Positions 15,209-59,508 of a DNA stretch of 64,000 nucleotides are shown piece after piece. Source of the stretch: Bacillota bacterium (GTDB lineage Bacteria; Bacillota; Sulfobacillia; JAJYWN01; JAJZPE01); the NCBI GenBank assembly GCA_021787335.1, contig JAJYMC010000016.1, forward strand, positions 62,001 to 126,000. Reading direction: 5' to 3'. Under the pieces are notes generated by a model. That model ran no database searches. It was not told the origin of the DNA and worked only from the letters and a program-made list of their open reading frames with translations. The position numbers were made by a program, and so were the translations under genes. The first letter of the stretch is position 1. Each line of letters starts with the position of its first letter.

Positions 15209-17125
15209 ATGTCCGGGGAAGGCAGGGCTATCGAGTCAATCCTGGCCACTGACGTCGGTAGTACGACGACCAAAGCCATTCTCATCGAAAAGAAGGGCGA
15301 CGAGTATCGCCTGATCACCCGCGGGGAGATGCCGACCACGGTCGAAGCGCCGTGGGAGAACGTCATGATCGGCGTCCGCAAGTCCATTCGCCGCGTGGAA
15401 GAACTCATTCAACGGCCGTTGCTCGACGACACAGGGCACCTGATCCGGCCCAAGCAGGGGGACAAGGGCGTCGATTATTACGTCTCCACCAGCAGCGCCG
15501 GCGGCGGTCTGCAGATGATGGTCGCCGGCTTGGTCTCCAGCATCAGCGCCTCCAGCGCCCACCGCGCGGCGCTCGGCGCGGGCGCGGTCGTCCTTGACGT
15601 CGTCGCCGTGGACGACGGGCGGTCGACCTCGGAGCAGATTACCCGGATCACTGAACTGCGCCCGGACATCATCCTCATGTCGGGCGGGGTCGACGGTGGC
15701 TCGGTGGCCTACATCGCGGCCATCGCCGAGACCATCGTGCAGGCCAGCCCGCAACCGCGGTTCGGGGCCACCTTCAAGTTGCCCCTGGTCTACGCGGGGA
15801 ACAAGGACGCCCAGGACATGATCCAGTCCATCGCCGAGAAGGAACTCGAAGTCCATCTGGTCGAGAACCTCCGGCCGCGGCACGACCTGGAGAACCTTGG
15901 GCCCGCCCGCGAGTCAATCCATGACCTGTTCATGAACCACGTCATGGCCCAGGCTCCCGGATACGGTGAGCTGATGAAGTGGGTCGACGTGACCATCATG
16001 CCGACGCCTGGTGCGGTCGGCAGCATCATCATGGTCATGGCCAAACAATACAAGCAGAACATCGTCGGGGTTGACATCGGTGGGGCCACGACCGACGTCT
16101 TCTCCGATTTCGAAGGGACCTTCACCCGGACCGTCAGCGCCAACCTGGGGATGAGTTACAGCGTCTGCAACGTCCTCGAGGAGGCCGGGTTCGAGAACAT
16201 CCGGCGGTGGCTGCCGTTCGAGGTCGACGAGGAAGGGCTGTCCGACTGGATCTCCAACAAGATGGTCCGGCCGACGACCATTCCGCAGACCCTCGACAAG
16301 CTCATCGTCGAGCAGGCCATCTCCCGCGAGGCCCTGCGGCTCTCGTTCGCTCATCATAAGAGTCTGGCCCGCAAGGTCGAGGCTCAGGAGATCCTGGCCG
16401 GCTGGCGGACCCAGTCCAAGTGGACCAAGGCCGCCGGCGAAGAAGTCATCGAGATGATGAAGCTCAACATGCTCGTCGGTTCGGGCGGCGTGCTCTCCCA
16501 CGCCCCGCGGCGCGAGCAGGCGGCCCTGATGCTGATGGACTCCTTCGTCCCGGAAGGCGTCACCCAGTTGGCCGTCGACTCCATCTTCATGATGCCGCAC
16601 CTGGGCGTGCTGGCGTCGACCCACCCGGAGATCGCCGCCGAGGTCTTCGACAAGGACTGCCTGGTCCGCCTCGGCACCTGCGTGGCACCGTCCGGCAAGG
16701 CCCGCGACGGGCAGGTGATCGGGACGATCAAGATAACCATGCCCGACGGGCAGGTCATCGACGATAAGATGCTTTACGGCGATATGAAGCGCTACCCGCT
16801 CCCGGTCGGCACCATCGCCAAGGCCGAGATTCAACCGAGCGGGGCCTTCGACCTGGGTGAGGGGAAGGGCAAGAAGGTCGAGGCCGAGCTCCACGGCGGC
16901 CTGGTCGGGATCGTCATCGACGGCCGCGGCCGGCCTCTGGAGCTGCCCCAGAACGACAAGGAGCGCGTGGCCAAGCTGATCAAGTGGATCGAGACACTGA
17001 ACGTCTATCCGATGGACTTCATCCGGAAGTACCAGGCGGAGAGCCCGGTTGCGACGAAGACCGCGGCCGGCGCGGAGAAGGGGGGCGAGCGGGGTGGCCT
17101 ATTCGGTCGGTTCGGCCGGAAGTAA
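15209..17125 (+). CDS. GlmL-like ATPase, copy 1 (glutamate mutase L family, actin-like fold)
   Basis: The 638-residue protein belongs to the family of GlmL/MutL, whose founding member is encoded with B12-dependent glutamate mutase. All expected ASKHA nucleotide motifs are intact: phosphate 1 DVGSTTTK (D15-K22), phosphate 2 VDIGGATTD (D289 onward) and the adenosine loop VGSGGVLSHAP (G424 region). A STSSAGGGLQMMVAGLV segment near residue 100 is highly conserved with copy 2. ATG at 15209 follows GAAGGAGG. Its end overlaps the partner gene by 32 bases. There is no mutase gene in the window, so reactivation of a mutase is doubtful and another client is likely. Confidence 0.85.
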   Translation: MSGEGRAIESILATDVGSTTTKAILIEKKGDEYRLITRGEMPTTVEAPWENVMIGVRKSIRRVEELIQRPLLDDTGHLIRPKQGDKGVDYYVSTSSAGGGLQMMVAGLVSSISASSAHRAALGAGAVVLDVVAVDDGRSTSEQITRITELRPDIILMSGGVDGGSVAYIAAIAETIVQASPQPRFGATFKLPLVYAGNKDAQDMIQSIAEKELEVHLVENLRPRHDLENLGPARESIHDLFMNHVMAQAPGYGELMKWVDVTIMPTPGAVGSIIMVMAKQYKQNIVGVDIGGATTDVFSDFEGTFTRTVSANLGMSYSVCNVLEEAGFENIRRWLPFEVDEEGLSDWISNKMVRPTTIPQTLDKLIVEQAISREALRLSFAHHKSLARKVEAQEILAGWRTQSKWTKAAGEEVIEMMKLNMLVGSGGVLSHAPRREQAALMLMDSFVPEGVTQLAVDSIFMMPHLGVLASTHPEIAAEVFDKDCLVRLGTCVAPSGKARDGQVIGTIKITMPDGQVIDDKMLYGDMKRYPLPVGTIAKAEIQPSGAFDLGEGKGKKVEAELHGGLVGIVIDGRGRPLELPQNDKERVAKLIKWIETLNVYPMDFIRKYQAESPVATKTAAGAEKGGERGGLFGRFGRK

Positions 17126-18973: not shown

Positions 18974-19018
18974 CGGTAGCACCTCCTTTCGCAGACTGGC
19001 CTGAATTTTGTTAGACAA

Positions 19019-19043: not shown

Positions 19044-19134
19044 GCTGGAATCATCGCCGTTTTCTGATTTTAGATTATCGCCGACCCCCCGGTGAGATGC
19101 TTACTTGGAAGTATGCACTCACGGAGGGATGCAT

Positions 19135-19802: not shown

Positions 19803-19850
19803 CCGGCGGCAGCCCCATCCCGCGGCTGTATAACCTCTGAACGTTGCACG

Positions 19851-19875
19851 GGCCCGCCCGCACCGGGGGTGGGCC
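19851..19875 (+). terminator. Weak hairpin terminator
   Basis: GGCCCGCCC and GGGTGGGCC pair with one internal mismatch and are followed by ATGTTTT. It probably ends the coupled small-gene pair before the promoter of the second GlmL-like gene. Confidence 0.4.
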
Positions 19876-19884
19876 ATGTTTTGC

Positions 19885-19909
19885 AGGTATTCCGAAAAGC
19901 GTAGCGAAT
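19885..19909 (+). promoter_or_regulatory. Sigma-H-like promoter of the second GlmL-like module
   Basis: AGGTATT, exactly 12 bases, then GCGAAT matches the sigma-H pattern with one deviation (T for A in AGGA). It is 44 bp upstream of the ATG at 19953, just beyond the weak hairpin, and is the best candidate promoter for the glmL-like-2/partner-2 pair. Confidence 0.5.
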
Positions 19910-19952
19910 ATATCTGTTCGTCCTTGTTGGTTACATAAAGAGGAGGAAGGCC

Positions 19953-21821
19953 ATGTCTGAGAACAGTCATGGGGCCAAGTACAACCTGGACCGGGAGATC
20001 AACTCCATCCTTGCCACCGACTGCGGGAGCACGACGACCAAAGCCATCCTCATCGAGAAGGTGGACGGCGAGTACCGGCTGATCGTCCGCGGCGAAGCCC
20101 CGACGACCGTGGAGAAGCCGTTTGAAGACGTCACCGCCGGTGCCCGGAACGCCATCCGGGAGATCGAGGAGCTCACCGGCAAGCGGTTCCTCGACGACAA
20201 GGGCGTCATCAACCCGCGCCGTCCCGACGGTTCGGGCGTTGACATCTACCTGTCGACGTCGAGCGCCGGCGGCGGCCTTCAGATGATGGTCGCCGGCGTG
20301 GTCAAGATCATGAGCGCCGAGAGCGCGCAGCGGGCCGCCCTCGGGGCCGGGGCCATCGTCATGGACGTCATCTCCATCGACGATGGGCGCCTTCCGTATC
20401 AGCGCATCCAGCGCATCCGGCACCTCAGGCCGGACATGATCCTCCTCTCCGGCGGCATCGACGGCGGGACGATGTCCCACGTCGCCCAGATCGCCGAGCT
20501 CATCTCCGCCGCCGAGCCCAAGCCGCGCTTGGGCATCGGCTTCAAGCTGCCGATCATCTACGCGGGCAACAAGGACGCCCGCGGCTATGTGTCCAAGATC
20601 CTCGGCGAGAAGACCGACCTCCGGATGGTCGACAACATCCGTCCGGTGCTGGAGAGGGAGGTTCTCGGGCCGGCCCGCGAGGAGATCCACAACCTCTTCA
20701 TGGAGCACGTCATGGCCCAGGCCCCCGGCTACGACAAGCTGATGAAATGGACGCCGGTGCCGATCATGCCCACCCCGGGTGCCGTCGGCCTCGGCATGCA
20801 GAACGCGGCCAAGGAACACAAGATGTCGGTCATCGGCGTGGACATCGGCGGCGCCACCACCGACGTCTTCTCGGTCTTCGGCGAGGAGTACGAACTGTTC
20901 AACCGGACCGTCTCGGCCAACCTCGGGATGAGCTATTCCATCTGCAACGTGCTCCTCGAGTCCGGGGTGGCCAACATCATGCGCTGGGTCCCCTTCAGCA
21001 TCGACGAGGCCGACCTGCGCAACCGCATCCGGAACAAGATGATCCGGCCGACGACCATCCCGCAGACTCTTGACGAGTTGGTCATCGAGCAGGCCATCTC
21101 CCGCGAGGCCCTGCGCCTGGCGTTCATCCACCACAAGAGCCTGGCCGTCGGCCTCCGCGGCATCCAGCAAATCCGCGACATCGGCGCGGCCTTCGAACAG
21201 TCCATGACCGGCCAGTCCCACATCGACCTGATGAAGCTGGGGATGCTCATCGGCTCGGGCGGCGTCCTCTCGCATGCCCCGCGCCGCGTCCAGTCGGCCC
21301 TGATGATGCTGGACGCCTTCCAGCCGGAGGGCCTGACCCAACTGGCGGTCGACTCCATCTTCATGATGCCGCAACTGGGCGTCCTCTCGACCGTCCACCC
21401 GCAGGCTTCGGCCCAGGTCTTCGACCGCGACTGCCTGATTCGCCTGGGGACGGCCATCGCCCCGGTCGGCCCGGGCAGGGAGGGCGAGCACTCCGTCATC
21501 GTCAGGGGCACCCTGCCCGACGGCCGCGAGGTCAACGAGGAAGTCAAGTACGGCCAGATGCGCCTCATCCCCCTGGGCGAGGGCCAGACGGCCGAGTTCC
21601 ACATCCAGCCGGCTCGCAGCTTCGACGTGGGCGCCGGCAAGGGCAAGGCCATCACCCAAAAGCTCCTGGGTGGGGTCGTCGGCGTGATCGTCGACGCCCG
21701 CGGCCGCCAGCCCTTCGGGCTGCCCGTGGACAAGGCGACCCGGATCAAGAAGCTCCTCGAGTGGATCGAAAGCCTCGACGTGTACCCGCGCGAAGTCCTG
21801 GCGCGGTACAGCGCGAAGTAG
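19953..21821 (+). CDS. GlmL-like ATPase, copy 2 (glutamate mutase L family)
   Basis: A 622-residue close paralogue of copy 1; long stretches such as STSSAGGGLQMMVAG and IRPTTIPQTLDELVIEQAIS are nearly identical. Nucleotide motifs are intact: DCGSTTTK (D23-K30), VDIGGATTD (D297 onward) and IGSGGVLSHAP. ATG at 19953 follows AGAGGAGGAAGG. The partner gene begins 18 bp later. Tandem retention of two complete ATPases suggests either a heteromeric machine or two client versions. No mutase genes are nearby. Confidence 0.85.
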   Translation: MSENSHGAKYNLDREINSILATDCGSTTTKAILIEKVDGEYRLIVRGEAPTTVEKPFEDVTAGARNAIREIEELTGKRFLDDKGVINPRRPDGSGVDIYLSTSSAGGGLQMMVAGVVKIMSAESAQRAALGAGAIVMDVISIDDGRLPYQRIQRIRHLRPDMILLSGGIDGGTMSHVAQIAELISAAEPKPRLGIGFKLPIIYAGNKDARGYVSKILGEKTDLRMVDNIRPVLEREVLGPAREEIHNLFMEHVMAQAPGYDKLMKWTPVPIMPTPGAVGLGMQNAAKEHKMSVIGVDIGGATTDVFSVFGEEYELFNRTVSANLGMSYSICNVLLESGVANIMRWVPFSIDEADLRNRIRNKMIRPTTIPQTLDELVIEQAISREALRLAFIHHKSLAVGLRGIQQIRDIGAAFEQSMTGQSHIDLMKLGMLIGSGGVLSHAPRRVQSALMMLDAFQPEGLTQLAVDSIFMMPQLGVLSTVHPQASAQVFDRDCLIRLGTAIAPVGPGREGEHSVIVRGTLPDGREVNEEVKYGQMRLIPLGEGQTAEFHIQPARSFDVGAGKGKAITQKLLGGVVGVIVDARGRQPFGLPVDKATRIKKLLEWIESLDVYPREVLARYSAK

Positions 21822-21839
21822 GGGGAGGTAGAGACAGCC

Positions 21840-22961
21840 ATGGCGCATGCCTACACACCCGGCCTGAAGGTCACCGAACAGACCACCATCCAGAAGGTCC
21901 GGCGCCTGCCGCTCCTCGGCGATGTGCTGGTCAAGGTGGGTGACATGGTCAACCCGGACGACGTGGTGGCCAAGACGGACCTCCCCGGGAACCCGATGTC
22001 CATGAACGTCGCCCACGACCTCGCCTGTGAGCCCGAGGATGTCCCTCTCCACATGCTGAAGAAGCAGGGCGACAAGATCACCAAGGGCGAGGTCATCGCC
22101 AAAGCGTCATCCTTCTTCGGCCTGTCCAAGAAGGAGCTGAAGGCCCCCATCGACGGGTCGGTCGAGCTCATCTCGGGCGTCACCGGCCAGGTCACCCTGC
22201 GCGAGCCGCCCATCCCGGTCCAGATCAAGGCCTACATAAGGGGCAAGGTCGTCGAGATTCTGCCCCGCGAGGGCGTCATCGTCGAGACCACGGCCGCCTT
22301 CATCCAGGGTATCTTCGGCATCGGCGGCGAGGTCCAGGGCCAGATCAAGCTGATCGCCAAGACGCCCAGCGACGTCCTTGACGCTTCGTCCCTGACCCCC
22401 GACTGCAAGGGCAAGATCGTCGTCGGCGGTTCTCTGGTCACCGGGGCCGCTCTGAAGAAGGCCATCGAGGTGGGCGCGGTCGGCCTGGTGGCCGGCGGCA
22501 TCGTCGACGCCGACCTCATCGCCCTCCTGGGCTACGACATCGGCGTGGCCATCACCGGCCACGAGGATATCCCCATCACGGTCATCGTCACCGAGGGCTT
22601 CGGCCAGATAAAGATGGCCGACAAGACCTTCAACCTGTTCAAGAACATCGACGGGGAGGTGGCCTCGATCAACGGCGCCACCCAGATCCGCGCCGGCGTC
22701 ATGCGCCCGGAGATCATCGTCCCCGAGCACAAGCCGGTCGGGCGGCTGGCGGCCGATACGAGCAGCGAGGGCCTGATCCCCGGGACCCCCATCCGGGTCA
22801 TCCGCGAGCCCTACTTCGGCGTCCTGGCCGAGGTCGTCGACCTGCCACCGGAGTTGCAGGTCATCGAGACCGAGGCGAAGGTGCGCATCCTCCGCTGCAA
22901 GCTCGAGGACGGCCGGGTGGTCACCGTACCCCGGGCCAACGTCGAGATCATCGAGGGTTGA
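21840..22961 (+). CDS. Partner of GlmL-like copy 2: barrel-sandwich, swivel-like and KOW-like protein
   Basis: A 373-residue paralogue of the first partner with a single barrel-sandwich unit (RRLPLLGDVLVKVGDMVNPD; MLKKQGDKITKGEVIAKA; APIDGSVELISGVTGQV). A barrel segment RGKVVEILPREGVIVET follows, then the GKIVVGGSLVTGAALKKA domain from residue 191 and a KOW-like end (EPYFGVLAEVVDL, VPRANVEIIEG). The ASINGATQIRAG block is shared with the first partner. It has no signal peptide or membrane helix. Function is unknown; gene order indicates a physical or functional pair with the ATPase. Confidence 0.6.
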   Translation: MAHAYTPGLKVTEQTTIQKVRRLPLLGDVLVKVGDMVNPDDVVAKTDLPGNPMSMNVAHDLACEPEDVPLHMLKKQGDKITKGEVIAKASSFFGLSKKELKAPIDGSVELISGVTGQVTLREPPIPVQIKAYIRGKVVEILPREGVIVETTAAFIQGIFGIGGEVQGQIKLIAKTPSDVLDASSLTPDCKGKIVVGGSLVTGAALKKAIEVGAVGLVAGGIVDADLIALLGYDIGVAITGHEDIPITVIVTEGFGQIKMADKTFNLFKNIDGEVASINGATQIRAGVMRPEIIVPEHKPVGRLAADTSSEGLIPGTPIRVIREPYFGVLAEVVDLPPELQVIETEAKVRILRCKLEDGRVVTVPRANVEIIEG

Positions 22962-46277: not shown

Positions 46278-46886
46278 GTGTCTGGCGGGGCCGGGGAGCT
46301 GGCCCGCGTCCGGCGGGCGGTCTGGCTCAAGCGGGGCGCGGCTCTGGCGGTCCTGGCCGTGGTCGCCGCCATTCCGTGGGCGCGGTTCCACGCCCGCGAA
46401 CGGGCCCTGACCGCCGAGGCGACGGTGCTCGGTGCCGACTCGCCCCTGCGGCCGGCGGCCGACGCACTCATCCGCGGTCTCCTGGCCCGGAACTTCCAGT
46501 CCGTGGTACCGTATTTAATGGGGGATCTGCTGCTCGATGCCCGTCGGGAACTGGCTTACAACTTCCCGGCGAAGCCCGAGGAGGCCGTCAGTCTGGCCAC
46601 GGCGCTCAAGCTCGCCACCGGGGTGGGCCTGGAGCCGGCAGGACCGATCACGACGACCATCGAACGCGGTCCGAGCGGCGGCGCGGGCGCCTCCGGCGGG
46701 CCGGCCTATCTGACCGAGGCCGTGGTCCGGGCGACCTACGTCGTGGACCTGCCGGCCGGGACGCCGCCGGGCCGGCTCTTGGTCGAGGACCGGCTGGGTT
46801 TCCGTTACGACTCGGCCCACCAGCGTTGGCTGTGTTACAGTCTGTCGCGAAGCGCACGGACTGATGAGGGGAGCGAGGGACGTTGA
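46278..46886 (+). CDS. Single-pass membrane protein of ABC cassette 1 (ADSP family)
   Basis: The 202-residue protein has a basic N-terminus and one helix (about residues 15-36), then an extracytoplasmic domain that begins VLGADSPLRPAADALIRG. The same V-L-x-A-D-S-P pattern follows the helix in the protein at 53323, so the two are paralogues, one per ABC cassette. No family was recognised; the size is compatible with an NTF2-like domain. Its stop overlaps the TTG start of the ATPase. An accessory subunit of the exporter is inferred. Confidence 0.6.
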   Translation: MSGGAGELARVRRAVWLKRGAALAVLAVVAAIPWARFHARERALTAEATVLGADSPLRPAADALIRGLLARNFQSVVPYLMGDLLLDARRELAYNFPAKPEEAVSLATALKLATGVGLEPAGPITTTIERGPSGGAGASGGPAYLTEAVVRATYVVDLPAGTPPGRLLVEDRLGFRYDSAHQRWLCYSLSRSARTDEGSEGR

Positions 46887-47686
46887 GGAAGCGGGGAAGA
46901 ACGGCTGACGAGGTCGGCGCCCGAGTGGGGGCCGGGACGGCCGGCGCGGGCGGGGACCTCTTCGCCCCCGGGCCCAATGGTGATGACGCTTACGGCGAGC
47001 CCATCCTGAGGACGGTCCGGTTGAACAAGGCCTTCTTCATGGGCGAGACCATCTACGCCGTCAACGACGTTAACCTGGCCATCGAGGGCGGCGAGTTCGT
47101 CCTCATCACCGGGCCGTCCGGGAGCGGCAAGAGCACCCTCCTGTCCTTGCTCGGCGGGCTTGACCGGCCCATCTCGGGCGAGGTCATCCTCGACGGCCGG
47201 CGTTATTCGCGGCTTAACGAGAACGGGCTGGCCGCCCTGCGCCGCCAGAAGGTCGGTTTCGTCTTTCAGTTCTTCAACCTCATCCCTCACCTGACGGCGA
47301 GGGGGAACGTCATGCTGCCGATGCGCTTCGCCGGCCGCTCCGCCCGCGAGGTCGGGGAGCGGGCCGACGAGCTCCTGGCCCTGGTCGGTCTGACCGACCG
47401 GGCCGGTCACCGCCCCTCGCAGCTTTCCGGCGGCGAGCAGCAGCGCGTGGCCATCGCTCGGGCGCTGGTCAACAAGCCGGCCGTGGTCCTCGCCGACGAA
47501 CCCACCGGGAACCTCGATTCCAAGACGCGGGAGGGCATCGGCGAGATCTTCGGTCGCCTGAACCGCGAGACGGGTCAGACTTTCATCGTCGTCTCCCACG
47601 ACGAGACCTTCAACGGACTGGCCGACCACGTTCTCCACATGGTCGATGGCTGGATCGAGCGGAACGAGGTCCGTTCACGCCATTGA
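46883..47686 (+). CDS. ABC ATP-binding protein, MacB/LolD type (cassette 1)
   Basis: The 267-residue protein has ~45 polar residues and then an ATPase with Walker [11 protein letters not shown]-loop [13 protein letters not shown], signature LSGGEQQRV, Walker [13 protein letters not shown] and switch [16 protein letters not shown] is characteristic of LolD/MacB/FtsE-type ATPases that power mechanotransmission rather than classical import. TTG at 46883 overlaps the previous stop. It pairs with the two FtsX-fold permeases that follow. Confidence 0.9.
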
Positions 47687-47705
47687 AAGGGGCCCTCTGT
47701 CGTCC

Positions 47706-49181
47706 ATGACCTTCTTCCGGTTGGCCTTCACCAATGTAGCGCGGAACCTCGGGCGAAGCGTGCTCTCGGTCATCGCCATGGCCGTGGCCGCCTTCGTCAT
47801 GACCTCGTCGTCCTCGGTCGCCCAGGGCTACCCGCGCGACAGCTTCCTCGCCCAGCGGGCCTTCATCGGCGGCGACATCATCGTCTACCCGGACCAGTAC
47901 CGCCTGGGCGGGCCGACCGCGAGCGGGGCGGGCCCCGCGGATGACCGTCTGACCTACGCCCGCACGGCGGCCGACGCCCTCAACGACCTGCCGGACTTCC
48001 ACCCCGAGCTTCGTGATGAGGGCTATGTCCGCCGCGGACCGGCCCTGCCCAACGTGATCGACCTGCGCCAGGTCCAGCAGCGGCTGTGGGACGAGAAGGC
48101 AGTCAAGCTCATCTACCCGTATTACGCCCTGCCGGGCTTCGCCGGCGGGCCGGGCGGCCAGTCGTCGCCGCTACGCGGGCGGAACACCCTCCTCGACCAG
48201 TCGGTCTGGCACCTCTACGATTACGTCACCGCCGGTCGCTACCTGACCTCGGCCGACGACGGCGAGTTCGTCGCCGTGGTCGACGCGAGGCAGGCCAAGG
48301 AGGGGCGGGACGTCCCGCCGGTCGGCACGTCCATCGAGGTGAGCGTGCCTGCCGTCCGGCATGACCCGGACGGGACCCGGTGGTTCGACTACTCAGCGAT
48401 GAAGAGCTTCCGCTTCAAGGTCATCGGTCAGATCGCCCTGCCGACGCGCCTCCTGGCCTGGCCGACGCCGCCCAACGGCAGCGCCAGCGAGCAGCTCTAC
48501 TGGAGCACGCCGCAGGTGTTCATCCCGGCGGCCACCTTCGAGCAGGTCTACCGCGAGGTCAGCGGGGGCAACCCCTATGAGTTCGAGCAACTGATGGTCA
48601 TCGTCGAGGACCAGAGCTTCATCCGTCAGGCCATGACCGAACTGCGCCGGGCGCTGCCCGAGTACACCGCGGTGACCGTGGCCGACCAGGTGACGATGGC
48701 CGAGGCCCGGGGCCTGCCGGAGAAGGTCTACCAGGCGCCGCCACAGGTGCGCGGCGACCCGAGCCTGCGGGCGCAGGTCGGGGTCCCGATGGACCTCGGC
48801 CCGGCCATGACCCTGCTCCTCTACCTCATCGCGGCGATGATCGTCGCCGCCAACATGGTCCTCCTGGTCACCTCGAGGCGGCAGGAGATCGGCGTCCTGA
48901 GGGCCGTCGGGGCCAAGGGTCGGGACGTCGTCCTGATGATTCTGACCGAGACGGCCGCTCTCAGCCTGGGTGGAGCGCTCATCGGTTTCACCCTCGTCCG
49001 TTTCGCGGCCACCTGGAACCTCCTCTCGAACCGGGTCGGACTGGCCCGTGTCGGCCTCCTGACCCTGACCGACCTGGGCCGGGTGGTCGGCGTGACCCTG
49101 GCCATGGCCGTGGTCTTCGGCCTCTTCCCGGCCTTCCGGATGGCCCGGGTATCGGCCATGGAGGTGCTGCGCAATGAGTAG
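47706..49181 (+). CDS. FtsX/MacB-type permease A (cassette 1)
   Basis: The 491-residue protein has an N-terminal helix (SVLSVIAMAVAAFVMTSSSS), a ~330-residue extracytoplasmic domain and three C-terminal helices with the FtsX signature TSRRQEIGVLRAVGAKGRDV. This is the MacB permease architecture. It is paralogous to the protein at 54480 (similar start and an R-R-Q-E-I-G-x-L-R-A-x-G-A motif). ATG at 47706 is the only plausible start; AAAGGGG is somewhat far upstream. It overlaps the next permease by 8 bases. Confidence 0.85.
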   Translation: MTFFRLAFTNVARNLGRSVLSVIAMAVAAFVMTSSSSVAQGYPRDSFLAQRAFIGGDIIVYPDQYRLGGPTASGAGPADDRLTYARTAADALNDLPDFHPELRDEGYVRRGPALPNVIDLRQVQQRLWDEKAVKLIYPYYALPGFAGGPGGQSSPLRGRNTLLDQSVWHLYDYVTAGRYLTSADDGEFVAVVDARQAKEGRDVPPVGTSIEVSVPAVRHDPDGTRWFDYSAMKSFRFKVIGQIALPTRLLAWPTPPNGSASEQLYWSTPQVFIPAATFEQVYREVSGGNPYEFEQLMVIVEDQSFIRQAMTELRRALPEYTAVTVADQVTMAEARGLPEKVYQAPPQVRGDPSLRAQVGVPMDLGPAMTLLLYLIAAMIVAANMVLLVTSRRQEIGVLRAVGAKGRDVVLMILTETAALSLGGALIGFTLVRFAATWNLLSNRVGLARVGLLTLTDLGRVVGVTLAMAVVFGLFPAFRMARVSAMEVLRNE

Positions 49182-50313
49182 CCCCTCGTTCGAGATGGCC
49201 TGGCGCTACTGGCGGCGCGCCCCCTGGCGGAACCTGATGATGGCCGTCGTCCTGGCCGCGGGCATGGTCGCCTATCTCGTCTATAACGGATACTCGACGG
49301 CGATGGTCCTCCGCTCGCGGGGCGAGACGCGGAGCCTCAGGCTCCCGGCCGCCGCCGCCATCGTCCTCGATCAGGCCGGCGGGGCGGCCCGCGTGCAGCG
49401 GGCGCTGCAGGGCGCGCGCGGGGTCGGGGCGGTGGTCCCGGCCCGCCTCGACGACCTCCTCACGAGCGCCGGCAGCCTGAGCCTCCTGCGTCTGGGACCC
49501 TCGGGGCAAGCTCTCCTTGACGGCCTCAGCCTCGACGGCGCCCGTCCGTCCGGGGCCAACCAGGTCCTTGCCCCAAGGCTCGTCGCCGAGCGGCTGGGCG
49601 GCGTGTCGGCGCTGACCGTCCGCGGGGGCGGCGCGGCCCTGGCCGTGTCCGGGACCTACGATCACTTCTGGGACCTCGGCGACCCGCTCATCGCCGTCGA
49701 GGCCCGCGACCCCGCGGGGGCCAATGTCCTCTTCGCGTTCGGGCCGGCCGGCGCCGGCGGGGAAGAGACCGCTCGGGCGGTGGGCGCCGCCCTTGACGCG
49801 GCGACGGACCTTCCCGGCTACCGTCTCTTCACGGCCGCCACCCCGGACGAGATGGTCGAGCGGCTCGGCGCGGACATCTACCGCCCGGGCGGCCAGGCCG
49901 TGGCGCTGCTCTTCGTGACCATCGCCATTGGCTTCTGGACCCTGCTCCTGTCGGCCTTCCTCGAGCGGCGGCGCGAGGTGGCCGTGCTGAAGACAGTGGG
50001 CCTGTCGAGCGGCGAGATAACGCGGGTCTTCCTCGGCGAGGCGATCCTGACCGGTGTGGCGGGAGCCATCCTCGGTCTGGCCGCCGGTCCGCTGGCGACA
50101 CGGCTACTCTCCCGGGCGCTGGCCCTGCCTCTGGCGGTCAGGCCTGGGAGCCTCATCGCCGGCGTCGTCTACAGCCTCTTCGTGACCCTGGTCTCGGCCC
50201 TCTACCCGCTGGCCCTGGCCGGGCGCGGGACGGTGACCGAGCTGCTCCACGGACAACCAATCCGTTTGTTCTACCAGCGTGTCGGCGGGGCCGACGAATC
50301 GGCGGCCGACTGA
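49174..50313 (+). CDS. FtsX-type permease B (cassette 1)
   Basis: The 379-residue protein has a first helix (LMMAVVLAAGMVAYLVYNGY), a shorter extracytoplasmic domain (~190 residues) and three C-terminal helices with ERRREVAVLKTVGLSSGEI, an FtsX-domain signature. It is smaller than permease A, and the pair likely forms a heterodimer with the cassette 1 ATPase. A similar short permease closes cassette 2. Confidence 0.85.
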   Translation: MSSPSFEMAWRYWRRAPWRNLMMAVVLAAGMVAYLVYNGYSTAMVLRSRGETRSLRLPAAAAIVLDQAGGAARVQRALQGARGVGAVVPARLDDLLTSAGSLSLLRLGPSGQALLDGLSLDGARPSGANQVLAPRLVAERLGGVSALTVRGGGAALAVSGTYDHFWDLGDPLIAVEARDPAGANVLFAFGPAGAGGEETARAVGAALDAATDLPGYRLFTAATPDEMVERLGADIYRPGGQAVALLFVTIAIGFWTLLLSAFLERRREVAVLKTVGLSSGEITRVFLGEAILTGVAGAILGLAAGPLATRLLSRALALPLAVRPGSLIAGVVYSLFVTLVSALYPLALAGRGTVTELLHGQPIRLFYQRVGGADESAAD

Positions 50314-50349
50314 GCCTACCTGATACCTGAGATGTTGGGAGGGACCAGC

Positions 50350-52143
50350 TTGGGCGAGCGTCATGAAGGCGAGGCGGTCCTGGCCATCGAACTGGGCCGG
50401 GCTGTCACCAGGGCAGGCCTCTTCGAGGCCGGCCCGGACGGGTGGAAGCTGACGGCCACGGGGTCGGCGCCGACGACGAGCCAGGCGCCGTGGCGTGATG
50501 CCGGGCTCGGCATCCAGTCGGCCCTGGCCGATCTGACGGTGGGCCTCGGGCGGCCGCTGACCGGTCGCGAGAGAGTCGTCGCCTGCACGCGCGCCTCGGG
50601 CGGGCTGCGGGCGGCCGTCGCCGGGGTCATCCGGACGATGACCGCCGAGAGCGCCTGGCGCGCCGCCCTCAACGCGGGGGCCGAGGTGGTCGACGTCTTC
50701 TCCCTCGACGACCGGCGCCTTCCCGTTCAGCAGGCGATGGACTTCCGCCGCTCGAGCATCGACCTCCTGCTCCTGGCCGGCGGGGTGGACGAGGACCTCT
50801 TCGCCTACGGACGCGGGCATCAGGTCGTCACCGAGGCCGGCACGCTGGCCGGCGCCCTGCCCCCGTCGCGCCTGCGGCCGGGCGCGCCGTTGCCGGTGGT
50901 CTTCGCCGGCAGCGCTGAGGCCCGCGACCTGGTGGCCGAGGCCTTCAAGGGCCGTCCCGCGGCTTTCACGCTGACCGAGAACGTCCGCCCCGACCTGGAC
51001 CGGGAGGTCCTCGAACCGGCCGGCCGGACCCTGGTCGACCTCTACCGCGGCGAACTGCTGGAGTCCTCGGTCTTCCGAGGCTTGGCCGCGTTGAACCCGG
51101 CGCCGCTGGTCCCCACGGGCCTCGCGGTCGGCCAGGCGGTGAAGTCCTTCGCGCTGGCCCACGGCCACGACTCGACGCCGGCCAACGTGCTCGCCGTCGA
51201 CATCGGCGCCGCCGGGGTCGACGTCCACCTGGTCATGTCCGGGACCTATACCCGGTCTTCGACCCGCGGGACACGCCCGCAGAACGAGGCGACCCTGGCC
51301 GCCCGGGTCGCCCGCTGGTTGCCGTACGCCGTGGACCCGGCCAAAGTCCTCGACCACGTGGCCGGCCGGCGGGCCCATCCGGCCGCCGTCGCCGAGACCT
51401 GGCCCGAACTGCTCATGGACCTGGCGGAGGGGCGGGAGGCGATGGCCGTCGCCCTGGAGGCCCATAAGCAGGTCGCCGTGACCCTTCGCGGGATGCCGCG
51501 CCGCCGGACCATCGGCGAGGCCCTCGGCCGGTATCTGTCGGTCGGCGGGCAGACCCTGGTGGACCTGAGCAAGATCGACCACGTCATCGGTACGGGCGGG
51601 CCTCTGGCCGCCTCCCCCCAAGCGGCCATGCTGGCCCTCATTGACGGGCTCCAGCCGGCTGGGATCACCCGGCTATCGCTGGACGCCGACGGCTCCTGGC
51701 CGTGGCGCGGCCTGTTGGGCCTGGCCGGGCTGGACGGCCAGGGCGTGACCCCGCTGGCCCTCGGGACCTGCGTTGCCCCGCCGGCGACGGCGGGCCGGTC
51801 GCGCGAAGGCCGGGTACTGGCCGAGGTGGAAGTGCGGCAGGGTGTGTGGTCATCCACGGTGGCCCTCGTGGCCGGGGAACTGCGGGCCGTCCGTCCGCCG
51901 AAGGCCGGAGCGGCGACGGTCATCATTCGCCCCAAGGGGATGGCCGACTACGGGGCCGGTCCGGCCCGCGCGGTGCAGGCCGAGGTGGAGGCGGGTCGTT
52001 TCGGGGTCATCCTTGACGGCCGCGGCCGGCCCATCGTCATGCCAACCAACGAAGCGCGGCGGCAGGCCCGGGCCAGGGAATGGATGAAAGGCATCGGCGA
52101 CTGGCCCGCGGCGGCCGTCGCCGGCGGAGGTGAGGCCAGATGA
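50350..52143 (+). CDS. GlmL-like protein, copy 3, with degenerate nucleotide-binding motifs
   Basis: The 597-residue protein aligns over its length with copies 1 and 2 (ASGGLRAAVAGVIRTMTAESA, LLLAGGVDE, VLDHVAG; C-terminal VILDGRGRPI). The phosphate 1 motif DxGSTTTK has become ELGRAVTR (E14-R21). Phosphate 2 GGATTD has become GAAGVD (after D284). The adenosine loop is GTGGPLAAS. ATP hydrolysis is therefore doubtful and a pseudo-ATPase role is likely. TTG at 50350 follows GGGAGGGA. The gene lies between two ABC cassettes, with its partner gene overlapping by ATGA. Confidence 0.75.
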   Translation: MGERHEGEAVLAIELGRAVTRAGLFEAGPDGWKLTATGSAPTTSQAPWRDAGLGIQSALADLTVGLGRPLTGRERVVACTRASGGLRAAVAGVIRTMTAESAWRAALNAGAEVVDVFSLDDRRLPVQQAMDFRRSSIDLLLLAGGVDEDLFAYGRGHQVVTEAGTLAGALPPSRLRPGAPLPVVFAGSAEARDLVAEAFKGRPAAFTLTENVRPDLDREVLEPAGRTLVDLYRGELLESSVFRGLAALNPAPLVPTGLAVGQAVKSFALAHGHDSTPANVLAVDIGAAGVDVHLVMSGTYTRSSTRGTRPQNEATLAARVARWLPYAVDPAKVLDHVAGRRAHPAAVAETWPELLMDLAEGREAMAVALEAHKQVAVTLRGMPRRRTIGEALGRYLSVGGQTLVDLSKIDHVIGTGGPLAASPQAAMLALIDGLQPAGITRLSLDADGSWPWRGLLGLAGLDGQGVTPLALGTCVAPPATAGRSREGRVLAEVEVRQGVWSSTVALVAGELRAVRPPKAGAATVIIRPKGMADYGAGPARAVQAEVEAGRFGVILDGRGRPIVMPTNEARRQARAREWMKGIGDWPAAAVAGGGEAR

Positions 52144-53333
52144 AGACGGTCCTTCTTCCCACGCCGGTCTACCGTGGGCGCATCGCCCGGTCGCGCCGCC
52201 TGGACCTGGGCGGCAAGCTCAGTGTCGCGGTGGGCCAGACGGTCACCCCGTCGACCGTCATCGGTCTCAACGGGGATGAGGAACTCCGGCATTTCGTCCG
52301 GGTCGAGGCCGAGAACGGCCGGCTCCTGGCCAAGGTCCTGAAGGCCCCCGGCGACAAGGTCAAGCGGGGCGAGACCATCGCCTATTTCACCTACTTCTTC
52401 GGGCTGGGCTACAAGGAATACACCTCGCCCGTGGACGGCCGCCTCGAGGCCGTCTCCGAGGTCACCGGGACGGTCACCATCAAGCAGGACCCGACCCCGG
52501 TGGCCGCCCTCCTGCCCGGGACGATCGCCGAACGCCGCGAGGACGACGGCGTGACCATCGCCCTTACGGCGACGGTCATCGCCGGGGCCGCCGGCACCGG
52601 CCGGCCGACCTATGGCGAGCTTCTGGTCCTATCCCCCGACGCGGCGGCCCAACCCAAGAGCATCGGCGATGAGGTCAGGCGGCGGGTCGTGGTCATTCCA
52701 GGCCCGGCCGGCCGCGAGCTCATCGCCGTCCTGTTCCGGCGTCGAGCGGCCGGTCTGGTCTGCGGCGGCCTGAGCCGCGCCGCCGCTCTGGAACTGGAAC
52801 AGCAGGTCGCCCGGTTGACCCCCGAGGAGTTCGCGGCCCGCTACTATGACGCCGCCGCCCTCCGGGACGGAGACGGCGAGGCCGTCCCGACCGAGGTCGG
52901 CTTGACCATCGTGGCCGTCGCCGGGTACGGCGATGCGGCCATGCCGTCCGAAGTCCTCGACCTCCTCAGGGCCAACGACGGCCGGGTCGCCTATCTGGAC
53001 GGACGGATGACCGAGGGCGGGGAGGACGTCCGCCCCGAGGTGGTCATCCCCCTGGACGGCGAAGGGGCGGAGGCCGCGGCTCCCCCTACGTCGGCGCCCG
53101 TCGCGTCCGCACCCCCAGCCGCCGGCGCCGAACTCGTCGGTCGCCCGGCCGTGGTCGTCGCCGGTCCGCGCAAAGGGCTACGGGGTCGGGTCGTGGCCAC
53201 TCCGCCCGGCCGGCCGCTGACCCTGGAGACCGGCCTCGTGACCGAGGCCATCGAGATAGAGACCTCGGACGGGGCGCGTCACCTGGTGCCGCGGGCCAAT
53301 GTGGAGGCTTACGGGGACGGCCGTGGAGCCTAG
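52140..53333 (+). CDS. Partner of GlmL-like copy 3, diverged barrel-sandwich/KOW-like protein
   Basis: The 397-residue protein starts with barrel-sandwich-like sequence (RRLDLGGKLSVAVGQTVTPS, VLKAPGDKVKRGETIAYFTYFF, SPVDGRLEAVSEVTGTVTI), corresponding to the other two partners. It ends in a KOW-like block (VVVAGPRKGLRGRVVATPPG, LVPRANVEAYG). The middle GKIVVGG domain is strongly diverged, and an Ala/Pro linker lies at about residues 310-330. ATG overlaps the GlmL-like stop. No enzyme motif was found. Its retention next to a likely inactive ATPase suggests a structural or regulatory pair. Confidence 0.55.
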   Translation: MKTVLLPTPVYRGRIARSRRLDLGGKLSVAVGQTVTPSTVIGLNGDEELRHFVRVEAENGRLLAKVLKAPGDKVKRGETIAYFTYFFGLGYKEYTSPVDGRLEAVSEVTGTVTIKQDPTPVAALLPGTIAERREDDGVTIALTATVIAGAAGTGRPTYGELLVLSPDAAAQPKSIGDEVRRRVVVIPGPAGRELIAVLFRRRAAGLVCGGLSRAAALELEQQVARLTPEEFAARYYDAAALRDGDGEAVPTEVGLTIVAVAGYGDAAMPSEVLDLLRANDGRVAYLDGRMTEGGEDVRPEVVIPLDGEGAEAAAPPTSAPVASAPPAAGAELVGRPAVVVAGPRKGLRGRVVATPPGRPLTLETGLVTEAIEIETSDGARHLVPRANVEAYGDGRGA

Positions 53334-53940
53334 GCCGCCCGTATCCCCCGAGCTACGACAGGTCAGGCGGACCGTCCGGCAGCGCCGGTTGGTCCTCCTG
53401 GCCTTTCTTGCTCTGGGCGTCGTCTGGTTGATCGTCTCCTTCGACCGGGCCGAGGCCCGGAACACCCGGCCCGAGATCGTCCTGGCCGCCGACTCCCCGG
53501 TCTTCGCCAAGGTCCGGGACTTCCTCACCGTCTTCGCCTCCGGTTCGAACGAGAAGTACAGCCGGTACCTGGACGCGGGTCTGATCGGGCAACAGACGGG
53601 GTACTACCGCCAACGGATGGGCTACGTCAAGGTCCTCGGAACCTCTCCCTCCATCGGCGGGCTGGCCACGGTGAGCTCCCTGGAGACGCGCTTCGCCCCT
53701 GGGTTCACCCCGCCTATGAGCGGGTCCGTCCGTGAGGTCCCGGTGCTGGCCGCCTACACGATCACCGTGCAGGCTCCGCCGGCCAAACCCGGGACGGCCG
53801 CGTCCGGTCCCACGGCCATCAGCGCTCACCGCTATGAGGACATCTTCACCGTCACCTACGTCAAGGAAGTCCGGGGCTGGCGGATCACGGACATCCGGCG
53901 GGTCCATGAGGAGGCCGTCGAGACGACCCCGGGCAAGTGA
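53323..53940 (+). CDS. Single-pass membrane protein of ABC cassette 2 (ADSP family)
   Basis: A 205-residue paralogue of the protein at 46278: a helix at about residues 22-42 (LVLLAFLALGVVWLIVSF), then VLAADSPVFAKVRDFL and an extracytoplasmic domain with likely NTF2-like alternation (EDIFTVTYVKEVRGWRITDI). GTG at 53323, with GGGGACG upstream, is preferred and overlaps the partner gene by 11 bases. Function unknown; an accessory exporter subunit is inferred. Confidence 0.6.
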   Translation: MEPRPPVSPELRQVRRTVRQRRLVLLAFLALGVVWLIVSFDRAEARNTRPEIVLAADSPVFAKVRDFLTVFASGSNEKYSRYLDAGLIGQQTGYYRQRMGYVKVLGTSPSIGGLATVSSLETRFAPGFTPPMSGSVREVPVLAAYTITVQAPPAKPGTAASGPTAISAHRYEDIFTVTYVKEVRGWRITDIRRVHEEAVETTPGK

Positions 53941-54026: not shown

Positions 54027-54476
54027 ACGAAGGACCCATCGGCCAACCGCGTTTTCACCCATTACGCCATCGTCTTCCTGGCCGCCCTGGCGGCCGGGGA
54101 AGCCCTTCGCGTGGCCTTCGAGCACCTGTTCCCCGGCACGGCGCCGTTTCTCCACTACCTGTTCTACCTCCTGGCCGCCAAGCTCGCCGGGGACGCGGCC
54201 CTCTACCTCGTCGAACGCGGTCGCAAAGAGTGGCTCTACCTCGAGGATTACCTCTTTAACGACGTCCTCCTGGTCTACCGATACGGCTTCTTCCTCATCA
54301 TCGCCCAGGCCTACCTGGCAGGGCACTGGCTCCTGCTCTATTACCCGGCGCTCGGGACCCTGTGGCGCACCTCGGTCCTGGACGCCGCGTTCTATCTCTA
54401 CACCCGCGTGGCCCAGGACCTGGAGCTGGATAAGACCTACCGTCCGGGGCGCCACAGCATCCCGCAGGGGGGTTGA
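54027..54476 (+). CDS. Small polytopic membrane protein, probable ACG start
   Basis: The frame encodes about 149 residues with four likely helices (HYAIVFLAALAAGEAL; YLFYLLAAKLAG; GFFLIIAQAYLA; LLLYYPALGTLW). After an in-frame TAA at 53997 there is no ATG, GTG or TTG until 54111, inside the first helix region. ACG at 54027 lies six bases after AAGGGGGTGG, the only good ribosome site, so an ACG start is proposed. Alternatives are CTG at 54078, truncation to GTG at 54111 (121 residues) or a sequencing indel. No family was recognised. It sits in cassette 2, 3 bp before permease A. Confidence 0.5.
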   Translation, partial: TKDPSANRVFTHYAIVFLAALAAGEALRVAFEHLFPGTAPFLHYLFYLLAAKLAGDAALYLVERGRKEWLYLEDYLFNDVLLVYRYGFFLIIAQAYLAGHWLLLYYPALGTLWRTSVLDAAFYLYTRVAQDLELDKTYRPGRHSIPQGG

Positions 54477-54479
54477 CCC

Positions 54480-55989
54480 GTGGTCGTCCTTCGCCTGGCC
54501 CTGAAGAATGTGCAGAAGAACGCCAACCGCAGCCTTTTGGCCATCCTCGGGATGGCCATCGCCGCGGCCATCATGACCGGGTCCATCTCCATGCGGACAG
54601 GTTACAACAACCTGGCCTTCATCGACTATCGGCGATTCATGCAGGCCGACGTGGTCATCTTCCCGAAGAAGCTGCACGTCGACTCGGACGCCGTCCGCCA
54701 GCGGGCCACCGAGGAATGGTCGACCGTCGACTACCAGCCGACCTTCGGCAGCGACATGCTGTCGCTCGAACCGCGGCTCGCCGAGGAAGGCTTTTTGGCG
54801 CCGCCCGGGGGCGAGCCTGACATCGACCTGGCGGCCTTGCGGAAGGCCCTCGCCGGCCAGCCCAACATCGCCGGCGTCCACCCGCTGTTCGTCGTCCCGG
54901 CCATGCTCTCCGTGCAGACGGAGGGCGAGAAAACCCCGCGCTTCTACCGCGTTCCCGTGCGCGGCGAGGACGTCCTGGCCGCCGAGCGCTGGGGGGGTGG
55001 GCCGCCGATCGTCGACGGCCGGGAACTGTTGCCTTCTGATGATGGTACCGTCTATATGACCCCCAGCCAGGACGCGCTGGTCGACGCCAAGGCTGATGCC
55101 CATCCGTCGGTGCCCCTGGGGTCGGCCCTCAAGCTCTATTTCCCGGCGGTTCGCGGGGAGGAGAACGGCCGCCCGGTCTACGACTGGTCCGACCTCCGGG
55201 TCTTCAGCTTCACGGTCGTCGGCCACTATTCCATGCCCACCGGCCCGGCGCAGCTCTGGACCGAGGACGGCCGGCCGGTAGTCAGCGAGTATGACGGGCG
55301 GGCGATCACCGTCCCGACCTTCTGGGACGCCCCGGACATCATCGTCCCCAGCAAGACCCTGGCTTCGGTCTATCGGCAACTCGGCGGTACCGAGCAGACC
55401 CGGGCCGACCAGGTGGGCATCTCCCTCGACTCGATGTATCTCGCCAAGCAGACCGCGTCGGAGTTGCAGAAGGCCTTCCCCGATTACAGCGTCTACACGG
55501 TGCCGAACCTTATCCGGTTGGCCGGGGAGAATGTTCGCGCCATCCAGACCGCCGACGGCGGCATCCGGTACCAACGCGGCCTCAGCCGGCAGATGGTCTT
55601 GCCGGCCGACCTCTCGCGGACCTTCCTCGCCCTGTCCTTCGCCATCGCCGGCCTGCTCGTGGCGACGAACATGTTCATCCTCGTCGCCCAGCGGCGGCAG
55701 GAGATCGGCATCCTCAGGGCCATCGGGGCGTCCAGCCGTGAGGTCTTCGGCCTCATCCTGGCCGAGGTGGTCGGCCTCTCGGTCGTGGGTGCGCTGGCCG
55801 GTTTCCTGTTCATCCGGCTCGGGGTGACCGTCCTCCTCTTCTTCTCCAAGGTCAGCCTGGCCGAGGCCGGGCTGTCGACCCTGTCGGCCGCGATTCAGGT
55901 CGTCGGCCTGTCGGTCCTGGTGGCCATCCTCTTCGGGCTGCTGCCGGCCTGGGAAGCGGCTCGTTCGACGACTGCGGAGGTGTTGCGCC

Positions 55990-55997
<8 letters not shown>
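54480..55997 (+). CDS. FtsX/MacB-type permease A (cassette 2)
   Basis: The 505-residue protein has an N-terminal helix (LLAILGMAIAAAIMTGSISM), a ~340-residue extracytoplasmic domain and three C-terminal helices with AQRRQEIGILRAIGASSREV. It is a paralogue of permease A in cassette 1. GTG at 54480 starts three bases after the small membrane gene. The stop overlaps the ATPase start by 8 bases. It is likely a mechanotransmitting or lipid/peptide-exporting permease, as in MacB-type systems. Confidence 0.85.
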
Positions 55998-56813
<816 letters not shown>

Positions 56814-56817
<4 letters not shown>

Positions 56818-58097
56818 GCCGTTCGGTGACCCCGTCGGCCGGTCTGCGCAAGGCCCCGGCGCCGGCCCCCGCGCCTTCCCTGTGGCGACGGCTGGCGGCC
56901 GCCGTGAGCCCGGAGAACCTCCGGGCCAACCAGGCCCGGCTCTGGGTGGTCAGACCCCTGGCCTTCAGGTCGCTCAGGGCGCGACGGGCCGGCGGCGCCC
57001 TCATCGCCCTGGCGGTGGGGCTCTCCGTGACCGTCTTCGTCCTCTTCTCGGCCTACTTCGCCGCCACCCAGCAGGCGGTGGCCCGCCGGGTGAAGCCGTT
57101 CGACCTCCCGGGTGATCTCGTCGTTCGGGCGTCGGCCCCCCTCGAGGCCGGTTTCCTGTCCGCCCTCGGCCGTCAGGCCGACGTCCGGGCCGTGACGCCG
57201 GCTGCGTTCGCGAAGATGCTGACGTCGGCCGGCGAGGTCGAGGTCCTGGGGCTTGCCCCGGCCCTCCTCAAGGACGGCGAAGTGACCATGGCCGCCGGCC
57301 GGCCGCCGGCCGGCCCGGATGAGATCATGGTCCCCGCGGCGAGCGCCGCACGGGCCGGGCTCAAGGTCGGCGATGAAGTCACCCTGTCGGTCCTCGAAAG
57401 CGGCCGCCTCGTCAGCAGCCGGGCCGTCCTCGTCGGCCTCGGGCAGAGCCGCTACGGCTATTTCGCCGAGCGGCCGGTGATGACCGCCGAGGCCCTGCAG
57501 GCGGCCTTCGGCCTCAGCGCCAACCTGGCCATCGCCTTCACCGACAACACCTTCAAGGTCCGGCGCTTCATCGAGAACTTCGACCCGGGACCGGCGGGCC
57601 TTCGGGTGGTCACCGCGGACAGTCCGGAGACGGAGGCCAGGGGCCTCGTCGGGGGCGTCTTCTCCTCGGGCCGGCTGGCCATCCTCTTCGTCTATGTCTT
57701 CGCCACCCTCGGCGTCCTGAACATCATCCTCCTCTCCTTCCTGCAACGGAAACGGGCCCTGGGCGTGCTCAAGGCCCTCGGCCTCGACAACGATGACCTC
57801 CAGGCTTACCTGCTCCTCGAGGGCGCGCTGATGGGGGTGGTCGGGCTCGTCGCCGGGCTGGTCGCCTCCGGGATCCTCATCGCGGTCTTCAATCGCTACA
57901 CGACCAGCAGCTTCGCCGCTTCGCCCTGGCCCATGGTCATTGCCGCCGGGCTCAGCCTGGTCGTCCTCTACGCCGCCTCGTGGCTGCCCATCACCCTGAC
58001 CCAACGGGCGTCGGTCAACGCCTTGCTCCAGAACCGCCGGGTCTACCTCGACGCCGACTCGGCCTGCGCTCAGTGCGGGCGCTGCGGCGGGTTCTAG
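56814..58097 (+). CDS. FtsX-type permease B (cassette 2) with Cys-rich tail
   Basis: The 427-residue protein has a polar Ala/Pro N-terminus, a first helix (GALIALAVGLSVTVFVLFSAYF), a short extracytoplasmic domain and C-terminal helices with LQRKRALGVLKALGLDNDDL. It ends ADSACAQCGRCGGF, a CxxCxxC cluster after the last helix. It is the last gene of the operon, before a strong terminator. The tail could bind a metal or an iron-sulfur cluster, which is unusual for this family. Confidence 0.8.
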
Positions 58098-58262: not shown

Positions 58263-59508
58263 ATGCGCTTGAACCGTATATCAGTCAGGACCCTCGCTTC
58301 GCTGTTCCTCGTCCTCACGCTCGGGTTCCTATCCTTCGTTCCCAATGGTGGCAGTTCGGTGGCTGGCCAAGTCAGGGGGATCGACAGTGAAAGTCGACTT
58401 CGAGAAGTGGACGGCCGCGGCCGATTTCGTCGGCGCCTTCGACCATGTCAAGGTGGTCGCGGTCGGTGACGGCGCGCTGGCCCTCGACCCGACGGGCGGC
58501 CTGCCCCAGGGCAGCGACACGGCCGGCCTCTACAACGGCGGAGCTTACTACTACGGCTCATTCACGACCGGTTCGCGGACCACGCCGATGCCCTTCGACT
58601 GGGCCGTCCCGTCGTGGAACGCCGAGACGCCGCCGGGCACCTGGATCCAGGCAGAGTTCCGAGTCCAGGTCGACGGCGCCTGGACGAAGTGGTACAACCT
58701 CGGCGTCTGGACCTTTGACACGGGCACGGTCAGCCGGCACAGCGTCAATCTTCAGGGGGACAGGGACGGCTACGTGTCCACCGATACCCTGATGCTGAAA
58801 AAGCCGGCCGCGGCCTACGAGTACCGGATGACCCTTTTCACGCTGGACCCGGCGGTCACCCCGACGGTCAAGCTGATGTCCGCCGTGGCCATGGACACCA
58901 GGGCCACCGATGCGGCCTTCCCGGCGGACACCCGCGTCTGGGGGACCGAACTGGCCGTCCCTGAGCGCTCGCAGATGGACTACCTGCCCGACGGGGCCGG
59001 TTGGTGCAGCCCGACCTCCACCTCGATGGTCATGGCTTACTGGGCCGCCGCCGGCGCCAACCCGACCTGGGATCAGACCGTTCCGACGGTCGCCGAGAAG
59101 TGCTACGACTACGTCTATGATGGTACAGGGAACTGGCCGTTCAACACGGCGGCCGCCGCCGGCTACGGCCTGGAGGCCTTCGTCAGCCGGTTCCAGTCCA
59201 TGAGCCAGGTCGAGCAGTGGGTGAAAGCCGGCGTGCCGGTGGTCATCGGCATCGCTTTCAACAAGGGAGCGCTGACCGGCGCCCCCATCACCTCGACGAA
59301 CGGGCACCTCCTGGTCGTCCGGGGCTTCGACGGTAACGGGAACGTCATCGTCAACGACCCGGCCGCCGACCGGACCCAGGGGGAGGTGGTTCGAATCGTC
59401 TATGACCGACAGGAGCTGACCGACGCCTGGCTCGGGGCCAGCGGCGTCGTCTACATCATCCACCCGGCCGGACATCCGGCTCCGGCTTCGCTGGGCGGTG
59501 GGTGGTGA
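58263..59508 (+). pseudogene. Secreted C39-like cysteine peptidase, frameshifted after the signal peptide
   Basis: ATG at 58263 follows GAAGGAGG and encodes a secretion signal (RTLASLFLVLTLGFLSFVP). The rest is in the next frame, from about 58372 to 59508. Joining the two needs loss of one base, most simply one G of the GGGGG run at 58375-58379, which would give VAGQVRGSTVKVDFEKW. The mature part has an N-terminal beta domain and a C39_2-like peptidase domain with nucleophile cysteine in GAGWCSPTSTSMVMAYW, the catalytic histidine in TNGHLLVVRGFD and the aspartate in VIVNDPA. It could be a sequencing error, a phase-variable gene or a recent pseudogene. Confidence 0.75.

Follow-up and report, generated by a model that had tools for sequence, protein, structure and literature searches.

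Why should a GlmL-like protein whose ATP-binding loops are eroded be encoded among the genes of an ABC exporter? The question is raised by the third of three GlmL-like genes (copies 1, 2 and 3) in a 64,000-nucleotide stretch of Bacillota DNA, the whole of which we refer to as the window. A preliminary description, made from the sequence of this stretch, took copy 3 to be a pseudo-ATPase with a regulatory or scaffolding role tied to the MacB/FtsX-type transporters on both sides. Having compared copy 3 with its relatives in other genomes, we lean towards the view that it is a pseudo-ATPase adaptor or regulator from an old clade, docked together with its partner protein on a type VII ABC (MacB/FtsEX-like) transporter. 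The features on which the argument draws are as follows.

15209..17125, + strand: copy 1, used for comparison, motifs intact.
19953..21821, + strand: copy 2, used for comparison, motifs intact.
46278..46886, + strand: X202, with one N-terminal TM segment; missing together with copy 3 in a congener.
46883..47686, + strand: ABC ATPase (PF00005) of the upstream transporter.
47646..49181, + strand: FtsX_A permease (PF02687), 511 aa, type VII ABC architecture, about four TM segments.
49174..50313, + strand: FtsX_B permease (PF02687), 379 aa.
50332..52143, + strand: copy 3, a degenerate GlmL/MutL-family (PF13941) protein, with an ASKHA-like domain at about residues 12-480 and a C-terminal extension at about 495-600.
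52140..53333, + strand: partner of copy 3, 397 aa, related to the partners of copies 1 and 2; the family loop TGxExxxT/NGATQIRAG is lost.
53299..53940, + strand: X213, with one N-terminal TM segment; L044 has a weak relative in the corresponding position.
54111..54476, + strand: 121-aa protein with one hydrophobic segment; relatives adjoin MutL-like/partner pairs in other genomes.
54480..58097, + strand: downstream transporter, consisting of FtsX_C (54480-55997), ABC2 (55990-56817) and FtsX_D (56814-58097); present in the congener, which lacks copy 3.

Copy 3 is, as had been described, full length and in an intact frame with its partner retained: it encodes 603 aa from an ATG with zero internal stops, the true start lying 18 bases upstream of the one first assigned (50350), and the start of the partner gene at 52140 overlaps its stop by 4 bases, the two genes being translationally coupled. 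The motif differences, which we read from all three ORFs, are also as given earlier. Phosphate 1 reads LATDVGSTTTK in copy 1, LATDCGSTTTK in copy 2 and LAIELGRAVTR in copy 3 (D to E, S to R, T to A and K to R); phosphate 2 reads VDIGGATTD in copies 1 and 2 as against VDIGAAGVD in copy 3 (G to A, T to G and T to V); and the adenosine motif reads GSGGVLSHAP in copies 1 and 2 as against GTGGPLAASP in copy 3. The intact phosphate-1, phosphate-2 and adenosine motifs that mark an active ASKHA ATPase are accordingly not all present in copy 3. The losses are nevertheless partial, in that the phosphate-2 aspartates D290 and D297 and the adenosine GxGG are kept, so that copy 3 may still be able to bind nucleotide.

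PF13941 (MutL) matches residues 16-453 of copy 3 at 190.6 bits, well over the curated Pfam cut-off of 27, and homology to GlmL/MutL/OR-4 spans about 440 residues. Against the NCBIfam models, which are equivalog or subfamily models with cut-offs of 475, 600 and 204 bits, copy 3 scores 127.6, 108.5 and 91.8 bits and so lies outside GlmL and OR-4 in the strict sense. The predicted structure (pLDDT 85.9, pTM 0.88) has an ASKHA fold as judged by structural match, in agreement with the earlier supposition that the fold is retained; it matches FtsA with a Z of 14.1 (266 aligned, rmsd 4.9), acetone carboxylase with a Z of 13.2, PilM with a Z of 13.0 and diol dehydratase reactivase with a Z of 11.9, and when solved structures were searched by sequence with the copy 3 alignment, no useful relative emerged. 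Hydropathy indicates zero TM segments in copy 3 and zero in its partner.

The degenerate state is old and is common to all 13 members of the clade that we found. A first survey, in which 101 genomes were searched and about 115 regions read, yielded 146 proteins whose motifs form a cline. When the copy 3 alignment was used to search 154 genomes of the class, 13 genomes, at 572-786 bits, stood apart from the remainder, at 540 bits or below; these 13 span nine family groups, and several are Bacillota MAGs, some of them labelled Symbiobacterium or Ca. Fermentithermobacillaceae. The 13 degenerate proteins form one clade with 100% SH-aLRT, and the partners of the same 13 likewise form one clade with a support of 100. 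When the motif columns and the longest branches were removed (42 rows), the clade kept a support of 100/100 for the seven members retained, and with the partner tree this speaks against long-branch attraction as its cause. Two replacements are specific to the clade, N to S at position 194 (13/13) and P to G at position 263 (12/13), these positions being N and P in intact relatives and in OR-4. Among 398 genomes of the phylum, no relative outside the class scored above the level of intact proteins. No intact-motif orthologue of copy 3 was found among the 154 genomes of the class, in the same operon or elsewhere; an orthologue of this kind in the same operon is what the preliminary description had named as evidence against its proposal. 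The frames of the members are intact (573-691 codons) in 13 separate genomes, which rules out a frame or assembly artefact, and the existence of a 13-member clade rules out recent degeneration in this genome alone. All 13 genomes also encode other PF13941 relatives.

Within the clade the phosphate-2 loop, DxGGATTD, is broken in every member (13/13, nine families), which answers the check on conservation across species that the preliminary description had proposed. Phosphate 1 is altered in nearly all of the 13, from mildly, as in the near-normal DCGTAMTK of L041, to severely (QAGTAMSA), and the adenosine GxGG kept in copy 3 is not kept in every other member. The phosphate-loop columns have been lost differently among members, and there is no replacement motif. 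That catalytic residues were lost therefore stands insofar as the phosphate loops are eroded, but it does not stand as a loss specific to catalysis. On the question of whether the clade is SPECIFICALLY degenerate, we took the 103 columns in which intact relatives show conservation of at least 95%, and found that nucleotide-loop columns are retained at 0.47 as compared with 0.57 for the other family-invariant columns (p = 0.13), which does not support the idea that only catalytic residues were lost. Since loss is similar in the two sets of columns, the clade has diverged broadly; it has lost many other conserved residues, and a loss specific to catalysis is not supported.

The main rival to the adaptor reading holds that copy 3 has diverged but can still bind nucleotide, acting as an unusual ATPase or as a nucleotide switch in which the loop changes alter rate or specificity while function is kept. 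Other ASKHA enzymes tolerate variation in their phosphate loops, the D to E change in phosphate 1 is conservative, and G422 is kept along with D290, D297 and GxGG. We nonetheless regard this alternative as unlikely, because the phosphate-1 and phosphate-2 columns vary freely within the clade (SLDGD, GLHGT, DAGAES and others), unlike what is expected under selection for catalysis, and because both GATTD threonines and the aspartates occur together in 0 members. As D290, D297 and GxGG are kept in copy 3, and as L041 keeps DCGTAMTK, residual nucleotide binding or even slow hydrolysis by the clade is possible. To judge from the alignments, copy 3 is probably a scaffold or regulator and not an enzyme.

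The GlmL family is known for its mutase reactivases. MutL itself has been described as a chaperone that reactivates glutamate mutase (PMC4682846). Copy 3 has homology and a predicted ASKHA fold in common with GlmL/MutL and OR-4 (PF13941; NF040745, NF040744; glutamate/ornithine mutase accessory proteins), but it differs from them in falling below every NCBIfam cut-off, in having a partner, in lying in a transporter operon and in its eroded phosphate loops, and from OR-4 also in its C-terminal extension. The genome encodes six PF13941 proteins, not three. One of these, the C17 copy, is a canonical OR-4 (633 bits, cut-off 600) that adjoins the D-ornithine aminomutase OraE; it is without the C-terminal extension that holds D562, R564 and R566, and no partner gene was seen among its neighbours. 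The other five (copies 1-3, the C50 copy and the C7:54141 copy) are well under the strict GlmL/OR-4 cut-offs, and each has a partner gene. It is improbable, then, that copy 3, like GlmL, serves as a chaperone to reactivate a cobalamin-dependent mutase and lies in an exporter operon by accident: its PF13941 relationship and the resemblance of its fold to diol dehydratase reactivase would fit such a role, but the genome has a canonical OR-4 beside OraE elsewhere, copies 1-3 are far under the NCBIfam GlmL cut-offs, and no cobalamin-dependent mutase gene was recognised among the scanned neighbours of copy 3 or of its orthologues.

We note that copies 1 and 2 lie in a conserved operon (window 10821-22961), which comprises a DUF6754 membrane protein, proteins at 12839, 13493 and 14374, a MutL-like protein and its partner, a protein at 19284, and a second MutL-like protein and partner. 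Many genomes of the class have these genes in the same order, and in an unclassified bacterial MAG (L156) a related set includes a longer protein of DUF6754 type. A limited literature search found no reports on DUF6754.

In family f7, the one lineage measured, the degenerate genes are under purifying selection. There, in four genomes each with a degenerate and an intact copy, the pairwise Nei-Gojobori dN/dS is 0.13-0.16 for the degenerate MutL-like genes, 0.10-0.16 for the partners of degenerate copies and 0.09-0.12 for the intact genes of the same genomes; several of the dS values are near saturation, and the least diverged degenerate pair (dS 0.68) gives 0.156. Of the residues conserved in the family, 37 persist in 12 or all 13 members of the clade, among them R308, W329, H378, D451 and the C-terminal D562/R564/R566. 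A reading of copy 3 as a relic, one of a duplicated GlmL-type pair that lost its function and now decays while carried along in the operon, is very improbable in the face of this selection, of these residues and of frames kept intact in nine families with the partner always present, even though the long branches, the broad loss of family-invariant residues and the absence of the whole block from a congener would suit it.

The domain plan of the partner of copy 3 is taken over from the copy 2 partner, whose model (pLDDT 86) together with profile matches gives a barrel-sandwich (RnfC/biotinyl-like) part, a swivelling beta/beta/alpha-like middle and a C-terminal KOW; the middle domain of the copy 2 partner is a modest match to RraA (Z 9.0, 126 aligned, rmsd 3.1). 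Copy 1 has a longer partner (window 17148-18461) than copy 2, apparently with a second barrel-sandwich repeat. The partner is kept in 13/13 members of the clade, and the loop TGxExxxT/NGATQIRAG, common to intact partners, is lost in the partners of the copy 3 clade. Among 130 pairs, loss of the MutL motifs and loss of the partner loop occur together in 17 and are both absent in 111, with one pair showing each loss singly; independent co-losses amount to three events, too few for significance (sign test p = 0.25). Four natural fusions, in which the MutL-like protein and the partner form one ORF of 942-1148 aa (L163:20-2878, L143:1315-4758, L147:6609-9434 and L148:7745-10795), argue that both proteins act in one complex and suggest that the MutL-like protein and its partner form one. 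Milder, independent degeneration with loss of the partner loop was seen in two other lineages (L071:1796-3622/L124:2171-4171 and L113:8276-10120/L117:8188-10041). L113 and L117 (f7) sit in ABC/FtsX operons, and L071 adjoins unrelated housekeeping genes.

Transporter genes do lie on both sides of copy 3, as first reported, in the form of ABC ATPases (PF00005) and FtsX permeases (PF02687). We assigned the type VII ABC class where an ABC_tran ATPase accompanies a permease that has an FtsX domain, about four TM segments and a sizeable extracytoplasmic domain; here PF00005 is found at 46883 and PF02687 at 47646, 49174, 54480 and 56814, with the TM pattern read by hydropathy. Only 18 bases separate the end of FtsX_B from the start of copy 3. 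PADLOC matches at the locus were set aside, as these are generic ABC ATPase matches and weak FtsX-type TM matches. The claim that the operon has been retained is upheld in nearly all of the clade: in 12/13 members an ABC ATPase is encoded on the same strand no more than 3.5 kb away, and in nine FtsX as well. The order ABC-FtsX-FtsX-MutL-partner-X-FtsX-ABC-FtsX is common to the window and to L044, from the same taxonomic order, and the copy 3 gene order was seen again in G003 and L044. The exception is L042 (G017), which has a two-component system in place of an ABC/FtsX neighbour; at L042:11658-14091 a response regulator and a histidine kinase, read from sequence, lie between the intact and degenerate pairs. 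A degenerate and an intact pair share one gene cluster in six genomes (L042, L049, L106, L122, L197 and L198).

Intact relatives also occur in ABC/FtsX operons (24/141), and the link to transporters is therefore independent of degeneration. Some intact relatives adjoin ABC half-transporters or an SBP_bac_5 protein. An intact MutL-like/partner pair lies directly before two ABC genes in L046, L056, L058, L069 and L088 (in L058 and in L069 one of these genes was confirmed to have ABC_membrane and ABC_tran domains), and a MutL-like/partner pair follows an SBP_bac_5 protein in L037, L054 and L084.

A congener, G001, bears on which transporter copy 3 belongs with. In G001 the genes FtsX_C (78% identity), ABC2 (86%) and FtsX_D (69%) come immediately after the GNAT-like gene (window 45259, 70%); X202, the ABC ATPase, FtsX_A, FtsX_B, copy 3, the partner, X213 and the 121-aa gene are all missing as a unit between syntenic flanks. 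Because the block is missing as a unit and the downstream transporter is kept, copy 3 belongs with the upstream ABC-FtsX-FtsX, and the downstream transporter does not need copy 3. The proposed tie to the transporters on both sides is thus upheld for the upstream set and not for the downstream one. Loss of the block in G001 is likelier than its gain in the window, as the block is present in another family of the same order. A C39-like peptidase gene (window 58345-59508) is also missing in G001 despite syntenic flanks.

To return to the adaptor reading, copy 3 and its partner, both cytosolic, would form one complex, as the fusions found elsewhere suggest. From gene order, this complex may dock on the cytoplasmic side of the transporter, where it could serve as a non-hydrolysing, possibly nucleotide-sensing adaptor or regulator in the manner of the cytoplasmic domains of GspL and PilM. 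Type VII ABC systems use ATP hydrolysis in the cytosol to drive work outside the membrane (PMC5985334), and this makes it plausible that a cytosolic adaptor should sense or gate the ABC ATPase. In genomes with an intact pair in the same operon, the degenerate pair may work with its active paralogue. The regulatory or scaffolding role first suggested for copy 3 is thus favoured by an old, conserved and transporter-linked clade, but it is not tied to a loss specific to catalysis, and intact relatives also lie in ABC/FtsX operons.

There are precedents for ASKHA scaffolds in membrane machines; a limited literature search found no report tying GlmL-family proteins to transporters. Ssz1, the Hsp70 relative of the RAC complex, is an ASKHA protein that is said to bind ATP with no need for its hydrolysis and that acts in a stable pair. 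It is thus a partnered ASKHA protein, as we propose for copy 3, and RAC structures are in the copy 3 Foldseek list, but Ssz1 is a ribosome-associated chaperone from an unrelated family. A role like that proposed for copy 3 is played by two ASKHA scaffolds, PilM of type IV pili and the cytoplasmic domain of GspL (EpsL) of type II secretion systems, and the copy 3 model has PilM and FtsA among its best fold matches. GspL is reported to anchor the ATPase of its machine to the membrane (PMC4471445). Unlike these, copy 3 has no demonstrated sequence-family relation to them and no TM segment, and its machine is of the ABC/FtsX kind, not one with a traffic ATPase. The neighbours of copy 3, an ABC ATPase and FtsX-like permeases, are those of type VII ABC systems such as MacB, FtsEX and LolCDE. 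Accessory proteins can be required in such systems, as are SweC/SweD for FtsEX in B. subtilis (PMC6705773). No GlmL-type ASKHA protein was named among type VII ABC cofactors in the limited literature consulted.

We have thus identified a branch of the GlmL family with a dedicated partner that is repeatedly tied to transporters, one clade of which keeps the fold and erodes the ATP loops across nine families. If the adaptor reading is true, an ASKHA-type cytosolic regulator would be added to type VII ABC systems, and the active pair, the degenerate pair and the absence in a congener would provide a natural set for testing non-hydrolysing ASKHA proteins in membrane machines. It is possible, though we advance it only tentatively, that in a Bacillota class extended GlmL-family ASKHA proteins and their barrel-sandwich/swivelling/KOW partners make up an accessory module, cytosolic and so far undescribed, that serves membrane transporters, and that in some type VII ABC operons an active and a degenerate pair gate the exporter as a couple of active ATPase and pseudo-ATPase.
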